From positions 1-29,516 of IMG/VR virus record IMGVR_UViG_3300042507_006554: DNA of 29,516 bases; one strand, 5' to 3'. Positions 351 to 29,516 of this stretch are shown here, piece after piece (position 1 is the first letter of the stretch; each line of letters starts with the position of its first letter). The DNA is from a virus. Under the pieces are notes generated by a model. The model did not search any database and was not told the DNA's origin. It worked only from the letters and a program-made list of their open reading frames with translations. Both the position numbers and the translations under genes were made by a program.

Positions 351-1172
351 ATGGTAAAAAAAGTTATGTATAACAGCTCTATGCCTAGAGCAGGTTCTAC
401 ACTCATTCAGAATATTTTAGGTCAAAACCCTGATCTATATGTTACCCCTACATCAGGGGTATTTGAGTTTCTCTATAATTCTAGAGCAACATATTCAAAT
501 AGTCCTGAAGTTAAAGCACAAGATGCTGAACTAATGGAAAAAGCCTGGAAAGGTTATTGTAAAGGAGCTATTTATGGATATTTTAATAATGTTACTGATA
601 GACCTTATGCAATAGATAAATGTAGGGGGTGGGTTAGTGAATATAATTTCATTAACTTTTATGAAGAAAATCCTAAAATAATCTCTATGATTAGAGATCC
701 TAGAGCAGTTTATGCTTCTCTAGAGAAAAAATATAGAGCTAACCCACAACTCGATACAGGAGTTGCTAATTGGGGAAATCTTACAGGAACTACTACAGAT
801 AAAAGAATAATCCATTGGTCTAATACAGTACCCATTGGTCCTACTATGGATCGTCTTTATCAAGTATTATTAGAAGGTATTCACGAAAATGTTCTTTTCA
901 TCAAATTTGAAAATTTAACAACCAACCCAGATAAAGAACTAAGACGTATCTATGAATATCTAGAACTACCTTATTACAAACATGATTTTAATAATGTAGA
1001 ACAAATTACCCATGAAGATGATAAAATTTGGGGAGTATTTGGAGATCATGTTATTAAAAATAAAGTTGCCCCTGTTAAAGAAGACTTTAGAGAAATATTA
1101 GGTCCATCTGGTTGTCAATTAATTACAGACAATTATCAATGGTTTTATGAAGCTTTTGAATACAAAATATGA
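351..1172 (+). CDS. Sulfotransferase family protein
   Basis: This is a PAPS-dependent sulfotransferase of 273 residues, expected to move a sulfuryl group from PAPS to a hydroxyl or amino group of a glycan or other small acceptor in the cytoplasm. The N-terminus carries the 5'-phosphosulfate loop, PRAGSTLIQNIL at residues 12-23, right after a beta strand. The 3'-phosphate-binding segment follows at residues 111-124 (SMIRDPRAVYAS, with R115 and S123). The C-terminal part (FENLTTNPDKELRRIYEYL, residues 186-204) is also typical of the family. The length is normal, so the enzyme looks intact. The stop overlaps the next start (ATGA), which implies translational coupling with the glycosyltransferase. 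The acceptor cannot be read from sequence; a sugar added by the neighbouring transferases is the simplest guess. Confidence 0.85.
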   Translation: MVKKVMYNSSMPRAGSTLIQNILGQNPDLYVTPTSGVFEFLYNSRATYSNSPEVKAQDAELMEKAWKGYCKGAIYGYFNNVTDRPYAIDKCRGWVSEYNFINFYEENPKIISMIRDPRAVYASLEKKYRANPQLDTGVANWGNLTGTTTDKRIIHWSNTVPIGPTMDRLYQVLLEGIHENVLFIKFENLTTNPDKELRRIYEYLELPYYKHDFNNVEQITHEDDKIWGVFGDHVIKNKVAPVKEDFREILGPSGCQLITDNYQWFYEAFEYKI

Positions 1173-2074
1173 AAGTAGGTTATCAAACAAAAGATAAATA
1201 TTTAGTTTGGCATATTGAAGGAGGATTAGGTAAAAACATAGCTGCTACAGCTTTAATTTCCTCAATCAAAGAAAAATACCCAGACAGAAAATTAATCATG
1301 GTAGCTTCCTATCCTGAAGTTTTCTTGAATTTTGAAGAAATAGAAAGAGTATACCCAGTAGGAAATACCCCTTACTTTTATCAAAATTATATTGAAGATA
1401 AAGATACACTAGTTTTTAAACAGGAAGGATATTTTCAAAATGGTCACATTTCTAAACAACAACATATTATAGAAAGTTGGTGTCAAATACTAGATTTAGA
1501 ATACAAAAATCAAAAACCAGTAATAAGATTTAATTTAGTTCAAAGGAGAGTACCTAATATTTGGAGACAAGATAAACCTATAATGGTTATTCAAACTAAT
1601 GGAGGGCCTCTAGAAGATACTAAACCATATAGTTGGACCAGAGATATGCCTCCTTACATAGCTCTACAGATAATAAATCATTATCTTCCAAAATATCATA
1701 TCTACCAGGTTTGTAGAAATGAATCTCAAGTAATTCCTGGAGCTGTAGGTATATTTGATAAGATAACTAATACTGAACTTATTTCTCTTTTAGCAGTATC
1801 CGAAAAAAGAGTATTAATTGACTCATGTCTACAACACGCCGCAGCTGGGATAGGTTTAAAATCTACAGTATTATGGATAGGTACTTCTCCTAAATTATTT
1901 GGTTATGATACTCATAGTAATATAGTAGCTTTACCACCTAAGAGAAAACCAAAACTATATAATTCATATTTATTCGATTATTCATTTGATGGTTCTATGG
2001 ATCAATGTCCCTATGATGATGCAGAAGAAATATTTAACTTTAAGGAAATAATTACTACTATAGATAGAACTTAA
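1169..2074 (+). CDS. Glycosyltransferase family 9-like (heptosyltransferase-like) protein
   Basis: A 301-residue protein resembling GT-B fold glycosyltransferases of family 9 (ADP-heptose:LPS transferase-like). Visible features are a glycine-rich N-terminal loop (residues 16-25, HIEGGLGKNI) followed by an alpha helix, a strand of the form KLIMVASYPEVF at about residues 40-51, a central MVIQTNGG strand, and a C-terminal segment with LIDSCLQHAAAGIGLKSTVLW around residues 216-236. That last segment corresponds to the sugar-nucleotide-binding region where GT9 proteins read 'D(S/T)xxxHxAAA'. It starts inside the sulfotransferase stop (4-base overlap) and ends one base before the next gene. It probably adds a sugar to a phage or cell-surface glycan. 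Donor and acceptor are unknown. The family call is by motif pattern only. Confidence 0.65.
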   Translation: MKVGYQTKDKYLVWHIEGGLGKNIAATALISSIKEKYPDRKLIMVASYPEVFLNFEEIERVYPVGNTPYFYQNYIEDKDTLVFKQEGYFQNGHISKQQHIIESWCQILDLEYKNQKPVIRFNLVQRRVPNIWRQDKPIMVIQTNGGPLEDTKPYSWTRDMPPYIALQIINHYLPKYHIYQVCRNESQVIPGAVGIFDKITNTELISLLAVSEKRVLIDSCLQHAAAGIGLKSTVLWIGTSPKLFGYDTHSNIVALPPKRKPKLYNSYLFDYSFDGSMDQCPYDDAEEIFNFKEIITTIDRT

Positions 2075-2075
2075 A

Positions 2076-2666
2076 ATGGAATTAAAACCAGTTTTCCCAG
2101 TACCTACTAATATTAATCAAACTAATTATTATTGGTATCAAGAAGGTCTAAACTCAGAAGATCTAACAAACCTATATAAATTAGCTGCTACTTATCCTTA
2201 CACTAAAGGAACTATTGTAGGTAATGATGAAATTGTAGAATCTATTAGAAAAAGTAAAATCAAATGGATCCATCCAAATGATGATAGTCAATGGCTTTAT
2301 GATAAAATCATTAATATGGTTGTTGAAGCTAATAATACTATGTGGAATTTTAACCTTCATTCAGTAATAGATTCAATTCAATACACTGAATATTCTGAAG
2401 GTGGTGGTCATTATGATTGGCATATGGATATTGGTCCTGGTTCAATTAGTCATAGAAAAGTCTCTATTACAATTCAACTTTCAGATCCTAGTGAATATGA
2501 AGGTGGAGACTTAGAATTGTGGTATGGAGGTAGTATAATACAAATTCCAAAAAACAAAGGTTTAACAGTTTTATTCCCAAGCTTTTCAATGCACCGAGTA
2601 ACCCCAATTACTAAAGGTACTAGAAAAAGTTTAGTTTTGTGGGTAGGTGGCGAACATTATAAATAA
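2076..2666 (+). CDS. 2-oxoglutarate/Fe(II) oxygenase, prolyl-4-hydroxylase/PKHD type
   Basis: A 196-residue protein with a complete double-stranded beta-helix signature of 2OG-Fe(II) dioxygenases. The iron ligands are visible: H116-M-D118 (in HYDWHMD) and the distal H173 (SMHRV). R183 (GTRKSLVLW) sits where the family binds the 2-oxoglutarate carboxylate. The segment YEGGDLEL (141-148) and LFPSF (166-170) are classic in the PKHD-type/prolyl hydroxylase group. The expected reaction is hydroxylation of a protein side chain or small molecule using O2 and 2-oxoglutarate. It lies between a glycosyltransferase and a second oxygenase, which suggests it creates the hydroxyl used as a glycosylation or sulfation point, but this is inference. 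Related genes occur widely in T4-like marine phages, usually without a known substrate. Confidence 0.88.
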   Translation: MELKPVFPVPTNINQTNYYWYQEGLNSEDLTNLYKLAATYPYTKGTIVGNDEIVESIRKSKIKWIHPNDDSQWLYDKIINMVVEANNTMWNFNLHSVIDSIQYTEYSEGGGHYDWHMDIGPGSISHRKVSITIQLSDPSEYEGGDLELWYGGSIIQIPKNKGLTVLFPSFSMHRVTPITKGTRKSLVLWVGGEHYK

Positions 2667-2673
2667 TCTTAAC

Positions 2674-3258
2674 ATGCAAATATCAGCTTTTATAATTGAT
2701 GATTTCTATAGTGATGTAGACGAATTAAGAAAATTCGCTTTACAACAAGATTTTGGAATTAAAGGAAATTACCCAGGTAATAGAACAAATCCATTCCTAA
2801 ATGATTCTATGAAAGAAACTATTGAAAACATAGTATTTCCACATTATGGAAAGGTAACTTATTGGTCAGAAGAACAATATACTGGAGCATTTCAATATAC
2901 TACTTCTCGTGACCGTTCTTGGATTCATGCTGACCAAACTACTAAATGGGCAGGTGTATGTTATTTAACCCCAGATGCCCCTTTAAGTGCTGGTACTGCT
3001 TTATATAAGCATAAACCAACTGGTTTATCTATGGCTCCTAGAAAAGAAGATGGAAGTTATGATCTTGAATTATTAGATCTAATTAATAAAGATTCTCAAG
3101 ATATGACTAAATGGGAATTAGTAGATAGATTAGCAAATAAATACAATCGTTTAGTTTTATATCGTGGAGATCACTTCCATATGTCTATGGATTACTTTGG
3201 TCAAGATTTATATGATAGTAGATTATTCCAAACATTTTTCTTTGACACTGAACTTTAA
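2674..3258 (+). CDS. Second 2OG/Fe(II)-like oxygenase (DUF6445-like)
   Basis: A protein of 194 residues if started at the ATG at 2674. The longer reading from a GTG at 2647 would overlap the previous gene by 20 bases and adds a weak N-terminus, so I prefer 2674. The pattern is that of a beta-helix oxygenase distinct from its neighbour: HAD (H85, D87) as the first two iron ligands, GTALYKHKPTG downstream, and H167/H169 (GDHFHMS) as the distal ligand. R183 in SRLFQTFFF is a likely co-substrate-binding arginine. It resembles the DUF6445 group found in glycan or natural-product clusters. Two different oxygenases in tandem suggest two hydroxylation steps on one product. Substrate unknown. Confidence 0.7.
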   Translation: MQISAFIIDDFYSDVDELRKFALQQDFGIKGNYPGNRTNPFLNDSMKETIENIVFPHYGKVTYWSEEQYTGAFQYTTSRDRSWIHADQTTKWAGVCYLTPDAPLSAGTALYKHKPTGLSMAPRKEDGSYDLELLDLINKDSQDMTKWELVDRLANKYNRLVLYRGDHFHMSMDYFGQDLYDSRLFQTFFFDTEL

Positions 3259-3261
3259 TTT

Positions 3262-4512
3262 ATGTTAGTTGTAAAAAAACCTACAGCTATTCTTTATAAT
3301 TGGTATAAACAAGGTACCTTTGAACTTATCTCAGATGTTTATTTCCAAGAAAATTTAGAAGAAAAAGTTATAGTATACTCTTTACCTTATACAGGTAATG
3401 TAGAGAGTGACTTTGCTCTTTATAAACCTGACTTGATTATCTATACTCAAGAAGATATTAATATACCTCATAAATTTTTACAAGCTAGATCTTTTAAATA
3501 CTCCCAATACCCAGCTGATAATATTTTAGCTAATGATATTGTGTGTCAATCTACCTTTAGAAATAGTACCAACATACAACCTGTATTCTCAGTATTTACC
3601 CCTGCCTATAAAACCAATGAGCGTATTTTAAGAACTTATGAAAGTTTAAAAAATCAAACATTCACAGATTGGGAGTGGGTTGTGTTAGATGATTCACCTG
3701 ATGATATAACTTGGGATATTTTACAAGATTTAGCTAAAACTGATTTTAGAGTTAAACCCCATAAACTATACCCTTTAACAGGAGGTAATGTAGGTTTAGC
3801 TAAAAATAGAGTAGCTTCATTATGTAATGGTACTTGGTTAGTTGAACTAGACCATGATGATACTTTAATTAGTACCTGCCTAGAAGAATGTTATAACGCA
3901 TCTTTACAATTCCCAGACGCAGGTTTTATTTATAGTGACGTTTGTGAGTTATATGAAGATGGCCAAATGAGACATTACGACCATGATTGGTCAGGTAATT
4001 GGTACGCTAGAGAAGACAATTATTTTGATTTTGGTTATGCAGGACATACTTGGGTTGAGGCCGACAGTAAAATGTATTTAAACCACCATTATCCCGATAT
4101 TAACCCGCTGTCCATCCGTTTTAACATAAGTATGCCGAACCATGTAAGAATGTGGCGTAAAGACGTTTATAACCAAATAGGAGGCCATAGTAAATATTTC
4201 CCTGTAGCTGATGATTATGAACTTATAGTTAGAACATTTCTACATACTAAAATGATCCATGTTAAAAAGATGCTTTATTTACAATGGAACAATGGTAACA
4301 GCACAGTAGACAATAACGCTAAAGATATTAACAGAAGAGCAAGACTTATACGAGATCACTATGATAAGCAAATCCATGATCGTATATTATCATTAGGTAA
4401 ACAAGATTGGAATTGGGACAATGAATTAGGGCATTCTCAAAAATTCCAAAATAGTGCCCCTATAAGAAAATATTTTGAAGAAGAACAAGTTTTAAACTAC
4501 ATATATGAATAA
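3262..4512 (+). CDS. Glycosyltransferase family 2 with N-terminal extension
   Basis: A 416-residue protein. Residues 107-345 form a GT-A domain of family 2. FSVFTPAYKTNERI begins the fold, VVLDDSPDD (141-148) binds the nucleotide, DHDD (197-200) is the metal-binding DxD, and DDYE (317-320) is in the position of the catalytic-base region. The first ~105 residues have no GT2 signature and may bind a partner or acceptor. The function is transfer of a sugar from a nucleotide sugar in an inverting reaction; donor unknown. It starts 4 bases after the oxygenase and overlaps the following glycosyltransferase by 8 bases. A stretch near 4057-4170 uses GC-richer codons (ccg, ctg, cac, gac) than the rest of the gene, suggesting a mosaic origin. 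Confidence 0.85.
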   Translation: MLVVKKPTAILYNWYKQGTFELISDVYFQENLEEKVIVYSLPYTGNVESDFALYKPDLIIYTQEDINIPHKFLQARSFKYSQYPADNILANDIVCQSTFRNSTNIQPVFSVFTPAYKTNERILRTYESLKNQTFTDWEWVVLDDSPDDITWDILQDLAKTDFRVKPHKLYPLTGGNVGLAKNRVASLCNGTWLVELDHDDTLISTCLEECYNASLQFPDAGFIYSDVCELYEDGQMRHYDHDWSGNWYAREDNYFDFGYAGHTWVEADSKMYLNHHYPDINPLSIRFNISMPNHVRMWRKDVYNQIGGHSKYFPVADDYELIVRTFLHTKMIHVKKMLYLQWNNGNSTVDNNAKDINRRARLIRDHYDKQIHDRILSLGKQDWNWDNELGHSQKFQNSAPIRKYFEEEQVLNYIYE

Positions 4513-5650
4513 AAATAGACCTACTATTGTTTTTGCTACAATGTGCAAAAACGAAGAACACTGTATTTTAGAAACCCTAAAATCAGTTGCCCCTTATATT
4601 GATCATTGGATCGTATGCGATACAGGTTCCACAGATAAAACTATTTCTATAGTTAAAAAATTCTTTAAAGAAAAAGGTATTCCTGGAAAACTTTATCAAG
4701 ATGAATGGGTAGGCTTTGACTATAATAAAACTTTGATGATTCAAAGAGCTAAAGACAAAGCAGATTACATTATGCACTTAGATGCTGATGACCAGCTAGT
4801 AGGAGAATTTAAATTTTCTTTAGAAGAATCAGGAAAAGACGCCTACCATATCCCAGTTAGAAGAGGTAGTGCTGAATGGAAAGCTTTGATTTTATTTAAG
4901 GGTAACTATACCTGGAAATTTTGTGGTGTAGCTCATACTACTATCAAAGCTCTTGAAATTCCATCATACAATAGTGGAGACTTATCCCATTATGGGTATT
5001 ATATTTCAGGCGAAGGTATTGGTTCAAGAGCATTTGATCCTAAAAAATATCTATACGATGCTGAACGTTTGCAAAAACAATTCTGGGATACTTTAATTTC
5101 AGATCCAGATGGGTTAAATAATCGTTCTATATTTTATACAGCTCAAAGCTATATGGATTATGGAATGTATGATGAAGGTTTAAAATGGAATCGTTTATAT
5201 CTTAAAGTAAAAGATACTTGGATTGAAGAAGCATTTGAAGCTCAAATGAGAGTATCTCAATGTCTAATGGCTCTAGGAGCAGATTTAAATGAGATTATAG
5301 CTGAAATGGATAAAGCTATAGCTATATTTCCTGATAGATCTGAACCATGTGTTCATTTGGGAAGATATTTAAACCAAAAAGGACAACATGAGTTAGCTTA
5401 CAAATATCTAAAACAAGCTACTCGTAATAATATAGCTAATATTAAAAGCAAATATGTTTTATTCATTAACCAGTATTGCTACGGTAAATACATTAACGAT
5501 GAATTATCTGTAGCTTGTTTTTGGACTAATAGACTTGAAGAAGGATTTAATTATTTAAAACAAATTATTAATGATCCTGAATTTGAACCTCAACAAAAAA
5601 GACTAAATTCAAACCTTCAGCATTTTAATAATAAAATGAATGGAAACTAA
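4505..5650 (+). CDS. Glycosyltransferase family 2 with TPR-like tail
   Basis: A 381-residue protein. Its N-terminal ~200 residues are a GT2 domain of the kind often annotated as SunS-like or 'tetratricopeptide glycosyltransferase'. It has ATMCKNEEHCILETLKSV at the start, CDTGSTD (38-44) for nucleotide binding and LDADDQ (92-97) as the DxD motif. Residues ~225-340 are helical with repeat-like spacing (AIAIFPDRSEPCVHLGRYL and GQHELAYKYLKQA), consistent with one or two TPR units that could hold a protein acceptor. Such TPR-GT2 proteins can glycosylate protein side chains, so a virion protein is a reasonable but unproven acceptor. The start overlaps the previous gene by 8 bases and its end overlaps the flavoprotein by 11 bases. 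Confidence 0.82.
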   Translation: MNKNRPTIVFATMCKNEEHCILETLKSVAPYIDHWIVCDTGSTDKTISIVKKFFKEKGIPGKLYQDEWVGFDYNKTLMIQRAKDKADYIMHLDADDQLVGEFKFSLEESGKDAYHIPVRRGSAEWKALILFKGNYTWKFCGVAHTTIKALEIPSYNSGDLSHYGYYISGEGIGSRAFDPKKYLYDAERLQKQFWDTLISDPDGLNNRSIFYTAQSYMDYGMYDEGLKWNRLYLKVKDTWIEEAFEAQMRVSQCLMALGADLNEIIAEMDKAIAIFPDRSEPCVHLGRYLNQKGQHELAYKYLKQATRNNIANIKSKYVLFINQYCYGKYINDELSVACFWTNRLEEGFNYLKQIINDPEFEPQQKRLNSNLQHFNNKMNGN

Positions 5651-6827
5651 AACTTTAATTATAGGAGGGGGCATAACTGGACTTTCAGCTGCCTCCTTCC
5701 TATCTCATTCAGATTATTTAATTTTAGAAAAAGACTCTATACCAGGTGGATACTGTAAAACCACTATTAGAGGGGAGTATACCTGGGATTATTCTGGACA
5801 TTTTTTTCATTTTAATAATCCTGAAATTAAAGATTATGTCTTAGAAAACATGGAATCTGAAATGCTTCAGGTCACCAAGATAACAGACATCGACTACAAC
5901 GGTAATATAATTGACTTTCCATTTCAGTTTAACATCGATCAGTTACCGGAACAGGAATACAAAGAGTGTTTAGCAGATCTAGATAATTTAGGAGAAACAG
6001 ATTTATCTACTTTTAAGTCATTTGTAAGATCTACTTTAGGTAAAGGTATTTGTGATAAGTTCATTATCCCTTACAACGAGAAGTTATACGCTTGTGACTT
6101 AGATGAGTTGGAATATGATTCAATGGGTAGATTTTTCCCTAAAAGTAAATCTAAGTCCTACAACGATACTTTTATTTACCCAAAAGGAGGTAGTTATGAG
6201 TATATTAAGTCGGTTCTTAAAAGATTAGACAGTAACAAAATTCTACTTAATACTGAACTTCTAGAATTAGATTTAGAAAATAAAATAGCTAGAACTAATA
6301 AAGGAGATATTAAATTTGAACAATTAATCAGTACTCTACCTTTTAATAAACTTCATCCTAACCCTAAACTCTCAGCAAACAAAGTAGCTGTGTTTAATTT
6401 AGGTTTTAATAAAGGATCAGACATTAAAACTCATTGGAGGTATTTCCCAGGTAATGAAGTATTTTATAGAGTAGGATTTTACAATAACATATTAGGACAG
6501 GAAAAACTAAGTCTATATGTTGAAATCGGAGCTAACGTAGATCAAAAACTAAACGAATCTGAACTTTTAATGCAAGTTCTCGCTGATTTAGAAGATTGTG
6601 GTATAATTGAAGATGGTGTACATGAACTAGTCTCTCACCAATTTCTAACCATGAACCCAGCATATGTTCACATAACTAAAGAATCAAAAGAAATCTATAA
6701 TGAATGGTGTCAAAAATATAATCCTAAAGGAATATATTCAATAGGTCGATATGGTTCATGGACTTACTGTTCAATTGAAGATAATATTATAGAAGCTCAA
6801 CAAACAGTCAAAATTTTAAACAATTAA
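5640..6827 (+). CDS. FAD-dependent oxidoreductase, UDP-galactopyranose mutase/protoporphyrinogen oxidase-like
   Basis: A 395-residue flavoprotein. The Rossmann FAD site is clear at the N-terminus: TLIIGGGITGLSAA (residues 5-18), LEKDSIPGG (29-37) and DYSGHFFH further on. The middle PYNEKLY and YPKGGSYEYI and the late LISTLPF are typical of the amine-oxidase-like/UDP-galactopyranose mutase superfamily found in surface polysaccharide loci. It may ring-contract or oxidise a nucleotide sugar for the adjacent glycosyltransferases, or it may oxidise another substrate; I cannot distinguish these by eye. It is the last gene of the overlapping cassette. Stretches around 5865-5975 and 6036-6165 show GC-richer codons than the surrounding sequence. 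Length and domain order suggest it is intact. Confidence 0.7.
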   Translation: METKTLIIGGGITGLSAASFLSHSDYLILEKDSIPGGYCKTTIRGEYTWDYSGHFFHFNNPEIKDYVLENMESEMLQVTKITDIDYNGNIIDFPFQFNIDQLPEQEYKECLADLDNLGETDLSTFKSFVRSTLGKGICDKFIIPYNEKLYACDLDELEYDSMGRFFPKSKSKSYNDTFIYPKGGSYEYIKSVLKRLDSNKILLNTELLELDLENKIARTNKGDIKFEQLISTLPFNKLHPNPKLSANKVAVFNLGFNKGSDIKTHWRYFPGNEVFYRVGFYNNILGQEKLSLYVEIGANVDQKLNESELLMQVLADLEDCGIIEDGVHELVSHQFLTMNPAYVHITKESKEIYNEWCQKYNPKGIYSIGRYGSWTYCSIEDNIIEAQQTVKILNN

Positions 6828-15783: not shown

Positions 15784-16082
15784 ACAGATACCGAAATATC
15801 CCCATAATTAGAAGTACTACCAATAAACAAATGTACGCTACTTCTCGCTATCCAGAGATACCTTTATCTCCGGACGATATTTATGTTTACACTACTCAAG
15901 GGGATAGATATGATGTATTAGCATACCAATATTACACTGACTCTTCTTTATGGTGGGTTATAGCTGCGGCTAATCCTAATATAGGACTTAACTCATTAGT
16001 AATTCCTCAAGGTGTACAAATCAGAATTCCTAGCGATTACGCTAGTGTTATAACCCAATTTAATCTAATAAACAGATTATGA
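15780..16082 (+). CDS. LysM-like baseplate wedge protein (T4 gp53-like)
   Basis: A 100-residue protein with a LysM-type fold. VYTTQGDRYDVLAYQYYTDS (residues 31-50) is the LysM start, followed by LWWVIAAANPNIGLNSLVIP and QGVQIRIPSDY. The combination with 'D(R/T)YDxLAxxYYxDxxLWWxIAxAN' is characteristic of gp53/gpX-type baseplate proteins in contractile tails. It probably sits in the wedge-hub contact. It overlaps both neighbours by 4 bases (ATGA at each end). Full length is normal for the short versions of this family. Confidence 0.85.
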   Translation: MNRYRNIPIIRSTTNKQMYATSRYPEIPLSPDDIYVYTTQGDRYDVLAYQYYTDSSLWWVIAAANPNIGLNSLVIPQGVQIRIPSDYASVITQFNLINRL

Positions 16083-19000
16083 ATGTTGTCGGAGAAGCTA
16101 TTGCAGATTATGTTTCTGAACAAATTAAAGTAAGACAAAAAATATATGGTTCAGCTAATGCTACTAATAGACCATTAGCGGAAACTCTATTTCTTAATCA
16201 AAGAGTAGCTTTTGCTAAATTAGTTTCTGGAGTTAATATAGATGATGCTTCTAAACTTAGAGGAGAAATAAAAGATATTATTATACAAAATAATTTAACA
16301 GGCAATTCATTAGCATCTAAATTTATTTTATTTGCGGGTACTACTGAACGTGATACTGTTAACAATAGAAATTTATTATCTTCTGGGGTTACCCGTGATG
16401 GGTCTTCAATTAATAGGGGAGCTTATGGTTTAGGTGGGTTAGATTTTGGTTTAAAACCCATGCCTGGTATTACCTCGATAGATATTAAATCTGAAAATAG
16501 AGGTTCGTTAAGAACGGCTAATATAAAAATTAAAGCTTGGAATACTACTCAATTTGATATAATCGATCTTTTATATTTAAGATTAGGATATTCTATATTT
16601 TTAGAATGGGGTAACGTTAGTTATGCAGATAACAATGGTAAAATTGAACCAATTAACTCTTTTTCATTAGTTGATGAATTTTTAGCAGGTGGGCCTTTTC
16701 AAGGTGAAAAAATAGATCCCCAAATTCCTACTCCAGTTGAAAATACAACTACTAGTAATTCTCAAGGAGAAGCTACTATTACCGCTCTATTAGACAATAT
16801 AACTTTTCTTAGAAAACAATCAGCAGGCAATTATGATGCTTTCTATGGTAAAGTAATTAACTTTAATTGGTCTTTTGCTGAAGATGGGTCATACGATATT
16901 GACCTAGAACTTAGAAGTGTAGGTGATGTTGTCGAATCTCTTAGAATGAATGTTCTAATTAATGATACTACTCCAACAGAAGGAGAAGGAGAGTTAGAAG
17001 ACGAAGAGGATGCAATCCAATATTATAAAGATAAAAATCAATTTGGAAGAGATTTTTATAATTATATGAAATTTTTACAAAAAAATGGAGAATGGGCGTT
17101 AATTCCCGAAGGTAGTTTAGGAAGTAATGTTAATGGAGTTACTAATTCCCAATCTCGTTATTATAAAGGAAGTAGTGGAAATACAATTTTACTTAGCCAA
17201 CGATTTACGGGTTTAGCAGGTAATTACTTTTATCCTGAAGGATTATTAGAAGGAAAAGATATATTTAATTATATACGTTTTGGAGACTTTCTTTATTATA
17301 TTCAAAATAGTATACTTCCTATATATCAAAATGGTAATGATAAAACCCCACTAGTCTATTTAGATTTTGATCTTAAAACTAATCTTGCTTATTTTAATCC
17401 TTTTCAAATTAGTGCTGATCCTAGGGTTTGTGTAATTAATACTTTTGTTGATGGTGAATCTTCAACTTTTGGATATAATGGAGATCCTGAAACTTTTTTT
17501 TATGGACTTGCTGGAGAACCCTATGTAACTGATATTGAAGGTGTAAAAGTAGGTCAAATTATGAACATATACGTAAATATGCTTCATATACTACAACTTG
17601 TAGATGATAATACTACTGATGGAGAAGTTTCTTTAATTGAATTTTTAACTAATTTATGTACCGATATTTCCACAGCATTAGGAGGTGTTAATAACTTTGA
17701 ACCTTTTCTAGAGGAAGAAACTAATACTCTTAAAATAATTGACCAAACTCCTTTATCTGGAAAAGATTTAATATTACCTAAACTTGGAAAAAAATTACCT
17801 AAAGATACAACTACTATACAATTATATGGTTATAAAGTAACAGAAAATCCTGAAACAAAAGATCGATCTTTCTTAGGTAATTTTGTTAGAAATTATGGTA
17901 TAAAAACAGAACTAACTAATGCTTTTGCTACCACTGTAACTATTGGAGCTCAAGCTCGAGGTTCTGTAGTTGGAGAAAATTCTACAGCTTTATCTAAATT
18001 AAATGAAGGATTAATAGATAGAATTAAACCCCAAATAAATGATAGCCCTTTAAAATCTGATGAAAAAACCTTTAGTTTAACTACTTCTATATTTAAAATT
18101 AAGAATTCAGCAGGTGAATATCTAGATCCCTATAACCAATCTAATCTTACTGAAGAAGAAACAAAATTAGCTGAATTAGATAAAAGATTTCCTAATGCTT
18201 ATACAAATTATATTAAATTTGCAAGAAATCTAGCTAATACTCGCACTAAACCTTTACCTAAATATGATGACGGTGAAATAGATGGCTATTCTAAAGTCTT
18301 AAACAATTTTTTAAAATATTTAGAAGCCAAAGCAGCAATTACTAATAATCAATCTTCAGGAGCTGAAGGATTTTTACCTGTAAGTGTTGAACTTACTTTA
18401 GACGGAATTTCAGGAATTAAAATATATAATGGTTTAAATTTAGATACTAGATTTTTACCTTCTAACTACCCTGAAACTATGGATTTTTTAGTTACTAGTT
18501 TAAATCATAGAATAGATAATAATATTTGGACTACTAGTTTAAAAACCGTAATGGTTCCTAATAATACAGTCCAAGCTGGTGGAGATTATACTATAGCTAA
18601 GGTTTCTAAAGAAGGTTCACTTAGAGTAGGATTTGATGTTAATGGTAATCCTATTGATATTCCTAATAGAGCTTTAGATCCTGCCCCTAAAATTAATCCT
18701 AATAAGATAGGAGCAACTTCCTATGATAACTCACCTGTAGCTCGAAGTTTAGCATCTAAAGGTTATAAAAATGCTTCTATCCCCGATAAAGAACTTGTAA
18801 ATATCAATTTTGCAGTAGGAGGTAATAATAGAAAACTCCACCCAGATGCTGCTGCCGCACTCAAAGTTTGGGTAACTGAGTTAACTAATAACAAAATCCC
18901 ATACAGCATTAGTAGTGCTTATCGTGATTACAAACAACAAGCAGGCTTAGCAGCTACCCAAAGGGAAAGTGCAGCTCCTGCTGGTTCTTCTCCTCACGGG

Positions 19001-19567
19001 TGGGGTGGTGCTGTAGACTTTGGTAATCTAAAGCGATTAGTAGGAGGAAGTGTTAAGCCTATTGATAATTTAAATGGTAGAGTATCAACTAGCCCTAATA
19101 GTTACACTCTTATAGCTACAATTGGAGCTAAATATGGTTGGTATAATCCTTGGAGATTAAGTGATAATGCCGGGCAAGATGAAGTTTGGCACTTTGAATA
19201 TTGGGGTCCTCTAAACCCAACATTGCCTCAAGTTGCACCACCCCCACCAAGTGTAGCTTCAACTCAAGCTTTTGAATTTTTAGCTATGAGACTCCAACAG
19301 ATTTACAATCAACAAGATCCTGATATTTTATTTACTCCATTTAAAGGAACATTTAGTGATGATGAAAACAGCGCAGTTGTAGTTTTAAATAGATGGTTTA
19401 GAAGAGATAATATTCAAGATGAATATTTAAAACTAACTCCTCAAGATAAAAGAATTTTTGATGCTGCTTTCGCTAAACTTATAGCTGAAACTACTGGAAA
19501 TAAAAATAAAGTAACATTTAAGGCAAGTAACGGTACTAAAACATACATAATAGATTCTGACTTTTAA
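16079..19567 (+). CDS. Baseplate hub protein with C-terminal M15 (VanY-like) peptidase
   Basis: A 1162-residue virion protein. The first ~900 residues look like a gp27/gp5-type hub: GLKPMPGITSIDIKSENRG and LLYLRLGYSIFLEWG (near 130-185), and late PVSVELTLDGISGIKIYNGL. Residues ~930-1045 are an M15 D-Ala-D-Ala carboxypeptidase/endopeptidase domain. The start is LHPDAAAALKVWV. H973 and D980 (PHGWGGAVDFG) and H1038 (EVWHFEYWG) are the zinc ligands, and E1035 is the catalytic acid/base. The domain would cut peptide bonds in host peptidoglycan during entry, taking the place of the lysozyme domain in T4 gp5. A last helical ~100-residue segment follows a short proline linker (APPPPPSV). It is coupled to the previous gene by ATGA overlap and 2 bases from the next. 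Confidence 0.82.
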   Translation: MNVVGEAIADYVSEQIKVRQKIYGSANATNRPLAETLFLNQRVAFAKLVSGVNIDDASKLRGEIKDIIIQNNLTGNSLASKFILFAGTTERDTVNNRNLLSSGVTRDGSSINRGAYGLGGLDFGLKPMPGITSIDIKSENRGSLRTANIKIKAWNTTQFDIIDLLYLRLGYSIFLEWGNVSYADNNGKIEPINSFSLVDEFLAGGPFQGEKIDPQIPTPVENTTTSNSQGEATITALLDNITFLRKQSAGNYDAFYGKVINFNWSFAEDGSYDIDLELRSVGDVVESLRMNVLINDTTPTEGEGELEDEEDAIQYYKDKNQFGRDFYNYMKFLQKNGEWALIPEGSLGSNVNGVTNSQSRYYKGSSGNTILLSQRFTGLAGNYFYPEGLLEGKDIFNYIRFGDFLYYIQNSILPIYQNGNDKTPLVYLDFDLKTNLAYFNPFQISADPRVCVINTFVDGESSTFGYNGDPETFFYGLAGEPYVTDIEGVKVGQIMNIYVNMLHILQLVDDNTTDGEVSLIEFLTNLCTDISTALGGVNNFEPFLEEETNTLKIIDQTPLSGKDLILPKLGKKLPKDTTTIQLYGYKVTENPETKDRSFLGNFVRNYGIKTELTNAFATTVTIGAQARGSVVGENSTALSKLNEGLIDRIKPQINDSPLKSDEKTFSLTTSIFKIKNSAGEYLDPYNQSNLTEEETKLAELDKRFPNAYTNYIKFARNLANTRTKPLPKYDDGEIDGYSKVLNNFLKYLEAKAAITNNQSSGAEGFLPVSVELTLDGISGIKIYNGLNLDTRFLPSNYPETMDFLVTSLNHRIDNNIWTTSLKTVMVPNNTVQAGGDYTIAKVSKEGSLRVGFDVNGNPIDIPNRALDPAPKINPNKIGATSYDNSPVARSLASKGYKNASIPDKELVNINFAVGGNNRKLHPDAAAALKVWVTELTNNKIPYSISSAYRDYKQQAGLAATQRESAAPAGSSPHGWGGAVDFGNLKRLVGGSVKPIDNLNGRVSTSPNSYTLIATIGAKYGWYNPWRLSDNAGQDEVWHFEYWGPLNPTLPQVAPPPPSVASTQAFEFLAMRLQQIYNQQDPDILFTPFKGTFSDDENSAVVVLNRWFRRDNIQDEYLKLTPQDKRIFDAAFAKLIAETTGNKNKVTFKASNGTKTYIIDSDF

Positions 19568-26723: not shown

Positions 26724-27710
26724 ATGGCAAAGAAATCAAATCTGTTGCATGAGAGGATTGTCTACAAACCTTTCGAATACCCACAAGCTTACGAATACTG
26801 GCTTAACCAACAACAAGCGCATTGGTTGCATACTGAAGTTCCTATGATGTCTGATTTAAATGATTGGAATGCCAATCTAAGCGAATCAGAAAAAAACATC
26901 ATCGGTTCAATTCTAAAAGGATTTGCTCAAACAGAAACTATTGTAAACGACTACTGGAGTGGATTGGTTACTAAATGGTTCCGTAAGCCTGAAATAATTA
27001 TGATGGCGACCACATTTGGTGCTTTCGAAACAATTCACGCTGAAGCCTATTCTCTACTCAATGAAACACTTGGCCTTGATAATTTCTCAGAGTTTCTCGA
27101 AGATGAGTCAACTATGGCTAAGATTGAAAATCTTATGGTGGTTAGGGATAGCTTCAATGGTGAAAAAGATCTCCATGAGATTGCTAAGAGTCTTGCCATC
27201 TTCTCAGCTTTCACAGAAGGTGTTAACCTATTCTCTTCGTTTGCTGTTTTACTGTCATTTAAATTACGTAACAAACTTAAAGGAGTTGGACAAATTGTAG
27301 AATGGTCTATCCGAGATGAGTCAATGCACTCAGAAGCAGGTTGCTGGTTATTCAGAACACTACTTCAAGAAAATCCACACCTCAAAACCAAAGAACTAGA
27401 AGCAGCAATCAACGAAGCAGCTTTGTTGTCTCTTAAACTTGAACTTGACTTTATTGATAAAGTATATGAGTTGGGTGATTTGGAAGGATGTTCAAAGTAC
27501 GACATGCAAAACTTTATCAAAAATCGTGTCAATACTAAATTAGGCGATTTGGGTTATAATCCAATCGTTACTGATATTGACATGACTGCTGTTGAACGTA
27601 TGAAATGGTTCGATGCACTTTCAGGAGGTAAACAACACACGGACTTTTTCGCAAACCGAGTTACTAACTATTCTAAAGGACACATGCAATGGGACGAAAG
27701 TATCTTTTAA
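26724..27710 (+). CDS. nrdB: Ribonucleotide reductase class I small (radical-generating) subunit
   Basis: A 328-residue R2-type protein. It carries the dimetal site: E71 (QTETIVNDYW), E102 and H105 (FETIHAEAY), E165 (FTEGVNLF), E199 and H202 (RDESMHSEAG), with the radical-position tyrosine Y109. The first ligand is Glu where E. coli and human R2 use Asp. It pairs with a NrdA large subunit (not in this window) to make dNTPs for replication. The tail DFFANRVTNYSKGHMQWDESIF contains the conserved NY(S/A)K segment and the C-terminal peptide that binds NrdA. The last 22 bases are shared with the next gene in another frame. The shorter length matches compact R2 proteins of Bacteroidota. Confidence 0.93.
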   Translation: MAKKSNLLHERIVYKPFEYPQAYEYWLNQQQAHWLHTEVPMMSDLNDWNANLSESEKNIIGSILKGFAQTETIVNDYWSGLVTKWFRKPEIIMMATTFGAFETIHAEAYSLLNETLGLDNFSEFLEDESTMAKIENLMVVRDSFNGEKDLHEIAKSLAIFSAFTEGVNLFSSFAVLLSFKLRNKLKGVGQIVEWSIRDESMHSEAGCWLFRTLLQENPHLKTKELEAAINEAALLSLKLELDFIDKVYELGDLEGCSKYDMQNFIKNRVNTKLGDLGYNPIVTDIDMTAVERMKWFDALSGGKQHTDFFANRVTNYSKGHMQWDESIF

Positions 27711-29281
27711 TTCTAGCCCTACTATTTAGTACATTTTCTTTACTGGGAAGTCACCTCTCTGGGGGTGACATCCAGTATCGTTACATAGGTGATTCAACAG
27801 GAGTAGCTCGTCACTATAAAGTCATACTACGAGTTTATCGAGATATAACAGGTATAGCAATGCCTACAACTGATGCTGTAACTATCAGCTCAGGATGCTA
27901 TGCTAACATAAATGTACCCATGACTCTTACTCCGGGTTCAGGATTAGTAGCTCCAACTTTATTTGACTGTGTTATACCTGGCCCGACTACAAAAACACTA
28001 GAGGTTTACCTTTATACCGGCTATGTTATTTTACCCGGTAACTGCTCCGATTATAGATTTTGGTACGATAATTGCTGCAGACCAGGAGGTATCAACAATA
28101 TAAACGGATCAAACGGTGCTTTTGGTAACGATGGATTCTATTTTGACGCTAAACTAGATAATGCAACTCAAGGTCAAAATTCATCTCCTGTATTTGTAAG
28201 TGAACCTGTTAGAGCATTTTGCGTAGGCAATCCTTTCAACTGGAAACAGACAGTAATAGAAGCTAATGGAGATTCTGTTGTATATTCTTTAATAAATTGC
28301 CGAGAAGGTGCTTATCCAACTCAAACAGATATTCCATTTGATGCAGGTTGGTCAGCTACCTCTCCTGTTACTTCAACTTATTTTAACATCAATCCTGGTA
28401 CAGGTCTAATCTCATTTTTACCTACTCAAGTAGAAATTGATGTTTTATCTGTTTTAGTAGAGGAGTGGAGATTCGATACTCTATATGGGGTTTGGTACCA
28501 AGTAGGAAGTGCTAGTAGAGATATGATGATATCTATTTCTCCAAATTGCAATCCTATAGCAACACAAGGTGTTCAATATGATCCTACATTATACCCAGTT
28601 GACACCCTAACCGCATATCCATTTCTAAAAGTAGGCTGTTGTGATACTACATTTACCCTAAAATTTCATATTAAATTAGACTGTTATTCAGTCAATAATC
28701 AAGATTTTAGAATAACTGGTCCAGATGGGCAACCAAGAGCAATTACTAATATTTCAGCTAATTGTGATGTAAATGCTGAAACAGATTCACTCACAATTCA
28801 TATTCCGTTTAAATTGGGGATGAATGGTAGATATTTCCTTTATAGTAAAAAAGGATTAGATGGTAATACACTAATCAATAAATGTGGATTACCAATGGAT
28901 GAATTTGATACAATAGTACTTATTGTGGATGATTGTCCTCCTCCCCCACCCCCACCACCTCCCATTGATACAATTGATGATATAAGAAATGGTGATGAAC
29001 CTGAACCTACCCCTCAACCCCTTCCAGTTGTCATCCCTAACGTGATGTCTTCTAATAATGATAATGTAAACGATTTTCTTAAAATTAAAAATCTAAACAC
29101 TTGGAGAACTAATAAGTTAACAATATATAATAGATGGGGGAGAGTAGTATATGAAAAATTTGATTATAATAATGATTGGGATGGGTATAATGTTCCTGCA
29201 GGAGTTTACTACGGTACTTTGGAAGTAAATTTTGAAACCCAACATGAAGTTCATATATTTAACGTAACAATTATAAAATAA
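27689..29281 (+). CDS. Secreted protein with T9SS type B (CHU_C / gliding-motility-associated) sorting domain
   Basis: A 530-residue exported protein. Residues 1-21 are a signal peptide (MGRKYLLILALLFSTFSLLG, positive start then hydrophobic core). SHLSGGDIQYRYIGDSTGVA opens a large beta-rich, cysteine-containing domain of a type common in secreted Bacteroidota proteins. A linker of eight or nine prolines (about 417-425) leads to an acidic/proline spacer. The C-terminal ~80 residues match the type B sorting domain: IPNVMSSNNDNVNDFLKI, then LTIYNRWGRVVYEKFDYNN and DWDGYNVPAGVYYGTLEV. In Bacteroidota this domain sends cargo through the type IX secretion system to the cell surface or medium. Its start codon lies inside nrdB, so it belongs to the phage operon. 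It could act in superinfection exclusion or host-surface change; function is inferred. Confidence 0.88.
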   Translation: MGRKYLLILALLFSTFSLLGSHLSGGDIQYRYIGDSTGVARHYKVILRVYRDITGIAMPTTDAVTISSGCYANINVPMTLTPGSGLVAPTLFDCVIPGPTTKTLEVYLYTGYVILPGNCSDYRFWYDNCCRPGGINNINGSNGAFGNDGFYFDAKLDNATQGQNSSPVFVSEPVRAFCVGNPFNWKQTVIEANGDSVVYSLINCREGAYPTQTDIPFDAGWSATSPVTSTYFNINPGTGLISFLPTQVEIDVLSVLVEEWRFDTLYGVWYQVGSASRDMMISISPNCNPIATQGVQYDPTLYPVDTLTAYPFLKVGCCDTTFTLKFHIKLDCYSVNNQDFRITGPDGQPRAITNISANCDVNAETDSLTIHIPFKLGMNGRYFLYSKKGLDGNTLINKCGLPMDEFDTIVLIVDDCPPPPPPPPPIDTIDDIRNGDEPEPTPQPLPVVIPNVMSSNNDNVNDFLKIKNLNTWRTNKLTIYNRWGRVVYEKFDYNNDWDGYNVPAGVYYGTLEVNFETQHEVHIFNVTIIK

Positions 29282-29283
29282 TA

Positions 29284-29516
29284 ATGGCTACTCATAAAAC
29301 TTTACTTATACCTCTAGTTGAAGAAATTTTACTAAAGGAGATTGGAGAAGCAAATATTCCACCTTTAAAATGGACTAAAGTATCTCCAATCAAATATAAA
29401 TTTTTGGTTGACATAGGTGATTTTACTGAAATGGTAACTGTAGAATTTGACCAATTTGAAGACGAACATAAGCAATTCTACCTACCTCAGAAATATAGAA
29501 ATCTAGAAAATATATA
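29284..29516 (+). CDS. 5' part of an unknown gene (runs off the window)
   Basis: An ATG 2 bases after the secreted-protein stop opens a frame that remains open to the window end (at least 77 residues). The visible start MATHKTLLIPLVEEILLKEI is helical, followed by a beta-like KYKFLVDIGDFTEMVTVEFD stretch. I do not recognise the family. Close spacing places it in the same transcription unit. Confidence 0.65.
   Translation, partial: MATHKTLLIPLVEEILLKEIGEANIPPLKWTKVSPIKYKFLVDIGDFTEMVTVEFDQFEDEHKQFYLPQKYRNLENI

Follow-up and report, generated by a model that had tools for sequence, protein, structure and literature searches.

Why would a phage carry, overlapping its ribonucleotide reductase gene, a gene for a protein that ends in a sorting domain of the bacterial type IX secretion system (T9SS)? 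Bacteroidota phages are abundant, and little is known of what they change in the cells that they infect. The stretch of DNA analyzed here as a whole (the window) is a 29,516-base IMG/VR record from a contractile-tailed phage, as indicated by a tail sheath gene assigned with PHROGs. The phage is related to immuto, with 73% identity in nrdB and replication genes in the same order. The gene in question, to which we gave the family name SBX, lies in a genuine phage genome, in that tail sheath, gp32-like, exonuclease, DnaB-like, and nrdB genes are found in the same window.

The SBX gene and its junction with nrdB

The features of the locus, in window positions, are as follows.

26724..27710, + strand: nrdB, class I ribonucleotide reductase beta subunit (PF00268, 219 bits; phrog_86; 73% identity to nrdB of Flavobacterium phage immuto)
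27675..27680, + strand: Shine-Dalgarno-like AAAGGA within nrdB, 8 nt upstream of the SBX ATG (direct sequence reading)
27689..29281, + strand: SBX, candidate T9SS type B cargo gene, 530 aa, ATG start (relatives in 38 viral contigs)
27689..27748, + strand: putative signal peptide, residues 1–20 (MGRKYLLILALLFSTFSLLG; n- and h-region, hydropathy, aligned relatives)
27741..27777, + strand: predicted RNA hairpin in the SBX coding start, in copies at nrdB (−21 kcal/mol, z −3.5 in the window)
27749..28588, + strand: N-terminal Cys-rich beta domain, residues 21–300, the most conserved part (alignment; dN/dS 0.05–0.13; AlphaFold2 mean pLDDT 80)
28589..28936, + strand: second beta region, residues 301–416, with mosaic divergence between phages (dN by region)
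28937..29023, + strand: proline-rich linker, residues 417–445, replacing a middle region of about 150–200 aa in long phage and bacterial forms
29024..29278, + strand: type B T9SS sorting domain (CHU_C), residues 446–530 (PF13585, 67.2 bits)
29284..29514, + strand: next open reading frame, truncated at the end of the window (its homologues, weak DUF6934, at the nrdB–nrdA junction in L057, L066, and L067)

The first-pass annotation had described an open reading frame at 27689–29281 starting inside nrdB, and this description was exact: the frame lies on the plus strand, opens with ATG, encodes 530 residues, and overlaps the last 22 bp of nrdB in a different frame. In the window, SBX codons 1–7 (MGRKYLL) are drawn from the final bases of nrdB. 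Copies at the nrdB junction generally take their first residues, MGRK or MGR, from the last nrdB codons read in the other frame, so that nrdB provides both the start codon and the charged beginning of the signal peptide. SBX copies at other genome sites mostly have an MKK- or MKR-type start.

The overlap had also been put forward as an argument against assembly contamination, together with a search for the same gene beside nrdB in Bacteroidota phage genomes. That search found the same arrangement in seven other contigs (L002, L003, L005, L008, L009, L011, and L112), in which SBX begins 22–25 bp inside nrdB; the overlap is not an artefact. In the nrdB-overlap contigs, nrdA lies downstream of SBX wherever the contig extends far enough, and nrdA is also next after SBX in L007 and L197, which are cut on the nrdB side. 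Ten SBX relatives were obtained in the first search and 38 viral contigs in total, and the recurrence of the layout in independent contigs rules out chance or mis-joining.

The nrdB-junction copies that were folded share the predicted hairpin at the coding start, with z values between −3.5 and −5.7. Over nine copies, 96.9% of cells are paired, and there is one two-sided compensatory change; the shuffle control is only mildly in favor of the hairpin, the copies are similar to each other, and the SHLSGGD codons predispose to its core. The 25-nt core occurs in eight viral contigs, and these are the contigs whose SBX copy lies at the nrd junction. It is missing in the two folded copies from another site (L004 and L006), and L010 folds differently. 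Rfam gave no match in the window.

Architecture and sorting domain of SBX

The first-pass annotation had read the product as a signal peptide, a cysteine-containing beta domain, a poly-proline linker, and a sorting domain, and each of these elements was recovered. Residues 1–20 look like a signal peptide, with a charged n-region followed by a hydrophobic core (12-aa KD mean hydropathy of 2.4), and both features are present in all aligned SBX copies as judged by hydropathy only. We infer cleavage before SHLSGG, which leaves 14 cysteines in the mature part. The linker begins with nine consecutive prolines (residues 417–425).

The C-terminal domain (CTD) matches CHU_C (PF13585) at residues 448–516 of 530, with 67.2 bits and an E value of 1.4e-18 against a profile cut-off of 27. 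The proposed motifs NRWG, WDGYN, and PAGVYYG are all present, and NRWG, WDG, and GVYYG are seen in the CTD alignment. With the type B profile TIGR04131, the window protein scores 32.7 bits, just below the cut-off of 35, and L008 scores 32.3 bits; the orthologues in L002, L004, and L010 exceed this cut-off, with 45.0, 41.4, and 40.9 bits, respectively. The shortfall in the window is probably due to a worn TPNGDG motif, which reads SSNNDN. Five motifs (A–E), conserved within the final 100 residues, are necessary in the type B signal of F. johnsoniae (PMC12618676). CHU_C scored above its cut-off in 10 of the 12 records searched; of the other two, one has a truncated copy and one is immuto, which is without SBX. 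Among the 38 SBX relatives, 35 have the CTD and the other three end at contig ends, meaning that every copy not interrupted by a contig end bears the domain.

Neither PHROGs nor a sequence search of the PDB helped to classify SBX, the former giving no match and the latter nothing meaningful. A fold search returned many Ig-like and S-layer matches with E values of about 1e-6, for which the TM score over the query was below 0.2 and the rmsd large, so that they indicate the fold class only.

Pairwise Nei–Gojobori estimates of dN/dS for residues 21–300 range from 0.05 to 0.13, with several dS values above 1 and thus saturated; at the level of these codon comparisons, they show purifying selection on SBX. 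The CTD varies more between copies than the N-terminal domain does. Residues 301–416 are out of step with both neighboring regions in several pairs (dN of 0.05, 0.33, and 0.07 for L003–L007), which suggests that modules were exchanged here. Taken together, anatomy and selection support well the view that SBX is a phage-encoded protein built for export.

Origin of SBX and putative exported cargo in related phages

Bacterial homologues were found at 27 loci in Flavobacteriales-type assemblies, mostly labeled Schleiferiaceae or Cryomorphaceae, with 37–53% identity by tblastn; the set derives from one pattern scan, and nearer bacterial relatives may be missing from it. Like SBX, the CHU_C proteins of Schleiferiaceae and Cryomorphaceae combine an N-domain with the SHLxGGDIQY motif and a CHU_C domain, and in the pairs compared, identity over residues 20–416 is about 43–61%. 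Unlike SBX of the window, the bacterial forms are mostly 720–767 aa long, have an extra middle region, and are chromosomal, in a recurring setting that by reading runs asnS-like, sigma-54-like, homologue, uvrC-like.

The N-domain tree, built from 10 phage and 19 bacterial rows, groups all phage copies in one clade (100/100) nested in the bacterial family, with a gene of the Schleiferiaceae MAG McBI.9 as sister. Extending the tree to 27 phage rows gave a consistent picture: the long phage forms (684–717 aa, with a middle region as in the bacterial proteins) are basal and paraphyletic, and the short form is one clade (100/99). Among the sequences sampled, these topologies show a single host-to-phage origin of SBX. 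On the same phylogenetic grounds, the long, host-like form is ancestral, and the short form has a single origin and came into use at the nrdB–nrdA junction afterwards. Copies at the nrdB site occur only within the short-form clade, where they are mixed among short copies from other sites, so SBX has changed sites more than once. The L010 genome is 68% identical to the window in SBX, 54% in nrdB, and 35% in the tail sheath over the aligned part, values that point to a transfer of SBX between phage lineages.

The nrdB–nrdA junction was surveyed in 80 nrdB relatives, some of them nearly identical, of which 77 had readable sequence after nrdB. nrdA follows nrdB directly in 59 of the 77, and a cargo gene lies between the two in 18. 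These cargoes are SBX (six), an Endonuclease_NS protein with a signal-peptide-like start (seven), DUF6934-like genes (three), and, by eye, a SHLLGG protein of 400 aa whose tail looks like type A and which has no family match (one) and a lipoprotein-like gene (one). The DNA/RNA non-specific endonuclease is seen, for instance, at L059:5508-6128 and L074:1136-1732, and the same type lies after nrdA in immuto (L012:9935-10513).

Elsewhere in related phages, other type B proteins were found in G041, G012, G057, and G013 and type A proteins, cohesin proteins among them, in immuto, G001, and G013; the type A protein of G001 has relatives in 15 further viral contigs. These come from 50 surveyed records, many of them short fragments in which absence says little. 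A different type B CTD protein of 422 aa lies between tail-tube-like and baseplate-like genes, by reading, at L142:475-1743 and L143:475-1743. Tentatively, and with rather more doubt than belief, the nrdB–nrdA junction may be an interchangeable cargo site common to Bacteroidota myophages, from which, along with other sites, different Sec- and T9SS-exported proteins would be displayed on the infected cell or released from it, as a general program of host-surface remodeling through the host T9SS; the hairpin may tune the nrdB copies.

The novelty implied by the first-pass annotation did not hold, since phage T9SS cargo is already known. Cryophage, described in 2020, encodes type A cargo, for which its authors proposed hijacking of the host system and possibly superinfection exclusion (PMC7468147), and T9SS sorting domains have been noted in BACON-containing gut phages of Bacteroidetes (PMC6949934); UniProt also has phage entries named “Gliding motility-associated C-terminal domain.” Like SBX, the Cryophage gene products have a T9SS C-terminal signal, but it is a type A CTD carried by endoglucanase, GH39, and PA14 proteins, and the genome is a circle of 76 kb (PMC7468147), whereas SBX is a type B beta protein without a recognized enzyme domain in a myophage nrd operon. 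The BACON phages share T9SS sorting domains in phage genes with SBX and differ in having BACON repeats near head genes and in belonging to a different family (PMC6949934). Our searches, made in open-licence papers, turned up no account of phage type B cargo. SBX is thus a type B variant of phage T9SS cargo, with a wider and better documented distribution.

A tblastn search with whole SBX against 50,697 named phages gave no matches. The CTD of L010 alone matched two huge phages (LR756502 and LR745206), which, like SBX, have a C-terminal type B-like domain on large proteins; unlike SBX, the passengers are other, repeat-rich ones (by reading), and the genomes are of 635–642 kb. In these phages of 642 and 635 kb, the domain ends the proteins at L136:1258-6270 and L137:3775-6273. 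Immuto (MW353176), related to the SBX phages and itself without SBX, has a cohesin-domain protein that likewise combines a signal-peptide-like start with a T9SS CTD, but the CTD is of type A, the passenger is different, and the gene is placed after nrdA. This protein (L012:12691-13422) scores 45 bits with TIGR04183 (cut-off 23), and its annotation is silent on the sorting domain. As immuto is cultured and has this type A cargo gene, it offers a laboratory handle on the idea of T9SS hijacking.

Export route and possible function

Type B CTDs take cargo to the cell surface via PorP/SprF (PMC9143113; PMC12618676), and PorP-like proteins have been proposed as anchors for such cargo (PMC9143113). 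Type B signals of F. johnsoniae depend on a PorP/SprF shuttle, and three orphan substrates have one in common (PMC12618676). The earlier suggestion that the phage would use the host's own export machine agrees with the gene contents found in homologue-bearing bacteria and in phages. PorP/SprF is present in two to five copies in each of eight genomes of the bacterial homologue's lineage and SprA in all seven searched; PorP/SprF was absent from ten phage records searched, with no linked cognate shuttle gene, and SprA from three.

Because no PorP/SprF was found in the phage records searched, SBX would be an orphan type B cargo relying on host shuttles. We consider it likely that SBX rides the host T9SS in this way to the surface of the infected cell; the actual export and display we infer. 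On this reading, a myophage whose host is probably a member of the Flavobacteriales carries a gene, captured from the host lineage, for a Sec-exported surface protein. SBX would be translated together with nrdB during infection, cross the inner membrane by Sec, and fold in the periplasm. The SprA translocon of the host would then export it, a host PorP/SprF shuttle would take it as an orphan substrate, and SBX would end up displayed on the surface of the infected cell. Points against export are that a type B signal normally depends on its cognate shuttle (PMC12618676), which the phages do not appear to encode, that the identity of the window CTD to bacterial homologues is only about 40% (47–48% for some long phage forms), and that the window protein falls slightly short of the TIGR04131 cut-off. 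F. johnsoniae does have type B substrates that are orphans, so a linked shuttle does not define the class, and lacking one does not keep SBX out of it. Given how widespread this captured surface protein is, its type B tag makes phage use of the host T9SS in infection testable, and since the phages carry no shuttle, SBX could supply phage-derived signals for studies of type B shuttle specificity.

For the benefit to the phage, we can offer guesses, ranked as a surface change first, adhesion second, a shuttle decoy third, and a virion part fourth. Masking, exclusion, and aggregation, as proposed in the first-pass annotation, are guesses of the same kind. A role as a defence gene was rejected, as PADLOC gave no match for SBX. 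The first guess is plausible, though we hold it with somewhat less than even confidence: an altered surface, through superinfection exclusion or receptor masking, would keep rival phages or progeny from adsorbing to an already infected cell.

Alternatively, SBX could help infected cells or lysate to stick to particles or to each other in the style of a host adhesin, with no phage exclusion involved. SBX does descend from a host surface-protein family, and type B CTD proteins include adhesins (PMC12618676), but no adhesin domain was recognized in SBX and its fold matches are generic Ig-like ones (TM below 0.2 over the query), so we regard adhesion as unlikely. A decoy is more doubtful still. 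Here, the main effect of the CTD would be to compete for the translocon or for PorP/SprF shuttles, of which there are few; fewer type B adhesins of the host would then be displayed, and gliding or receptor exposure would stop. The phages lack a shuttle of their own, and type B CTD fusions over-produced in F. johnsoniae were secreted only with a co-expressed shuttle, whose supply thus appears limiting (PMC12618676). A pure decoy needs no passenger, however, and in SBX it is the N-terminal domain that is most conserved (dN/dS 0.05–0.13), while the CTD varies more.

Least expected among the four ranked roles, and improbable in our view, is a structural role in the virion. SBX would decorate the tail or capsid or form a fibre, with a signal peptide and a CTD that either are remnants or serve in assembly. 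Virion proteins often contain Ig-like beta domains, SBX has fold matches to phage Ig proteins, and G013 and G057 have a different type B CTD gene among tail-like genes, by reading. Against this, SBX sits in a nucleotide-metabolism operon between nrdB and nrdA and overlaps the former, signal-peptide-like starts are retained across the copies, and PHROGs holds no match. The N-terminal part is somewhat richer in G+C (0.37) than the CTD (0.31), but the same junction in seven other contigs, which led us to reject an assembly chimera, the purifying selection, and the spread over 38 contigs leave next to no room for a chimera or a functionless passive hitchhiker.

Further genes in these genomes may be noted. 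Upstream of the tail sheath, window positions 351–6827 encode a sulfotransferase, a 2OG-Fe(II) oxygenase, a DUF6445 protein, two family-2 glycosyltransferases, and a flavin amine-oxidoreductase-like protein, a cluster that looks like a glycan-modification set. At 16079–19567, a 1162-aa protein has a VanY D-alanyl-D-alanine carboxypeptidase domain at residues 918–1043 and is possibly a tail-associated cell-wall enzyme. In relatives, an adjacent pair of tail-sheath-like genes was observed at G013:C1:62013-66226 and G012:C1:141667-145128.
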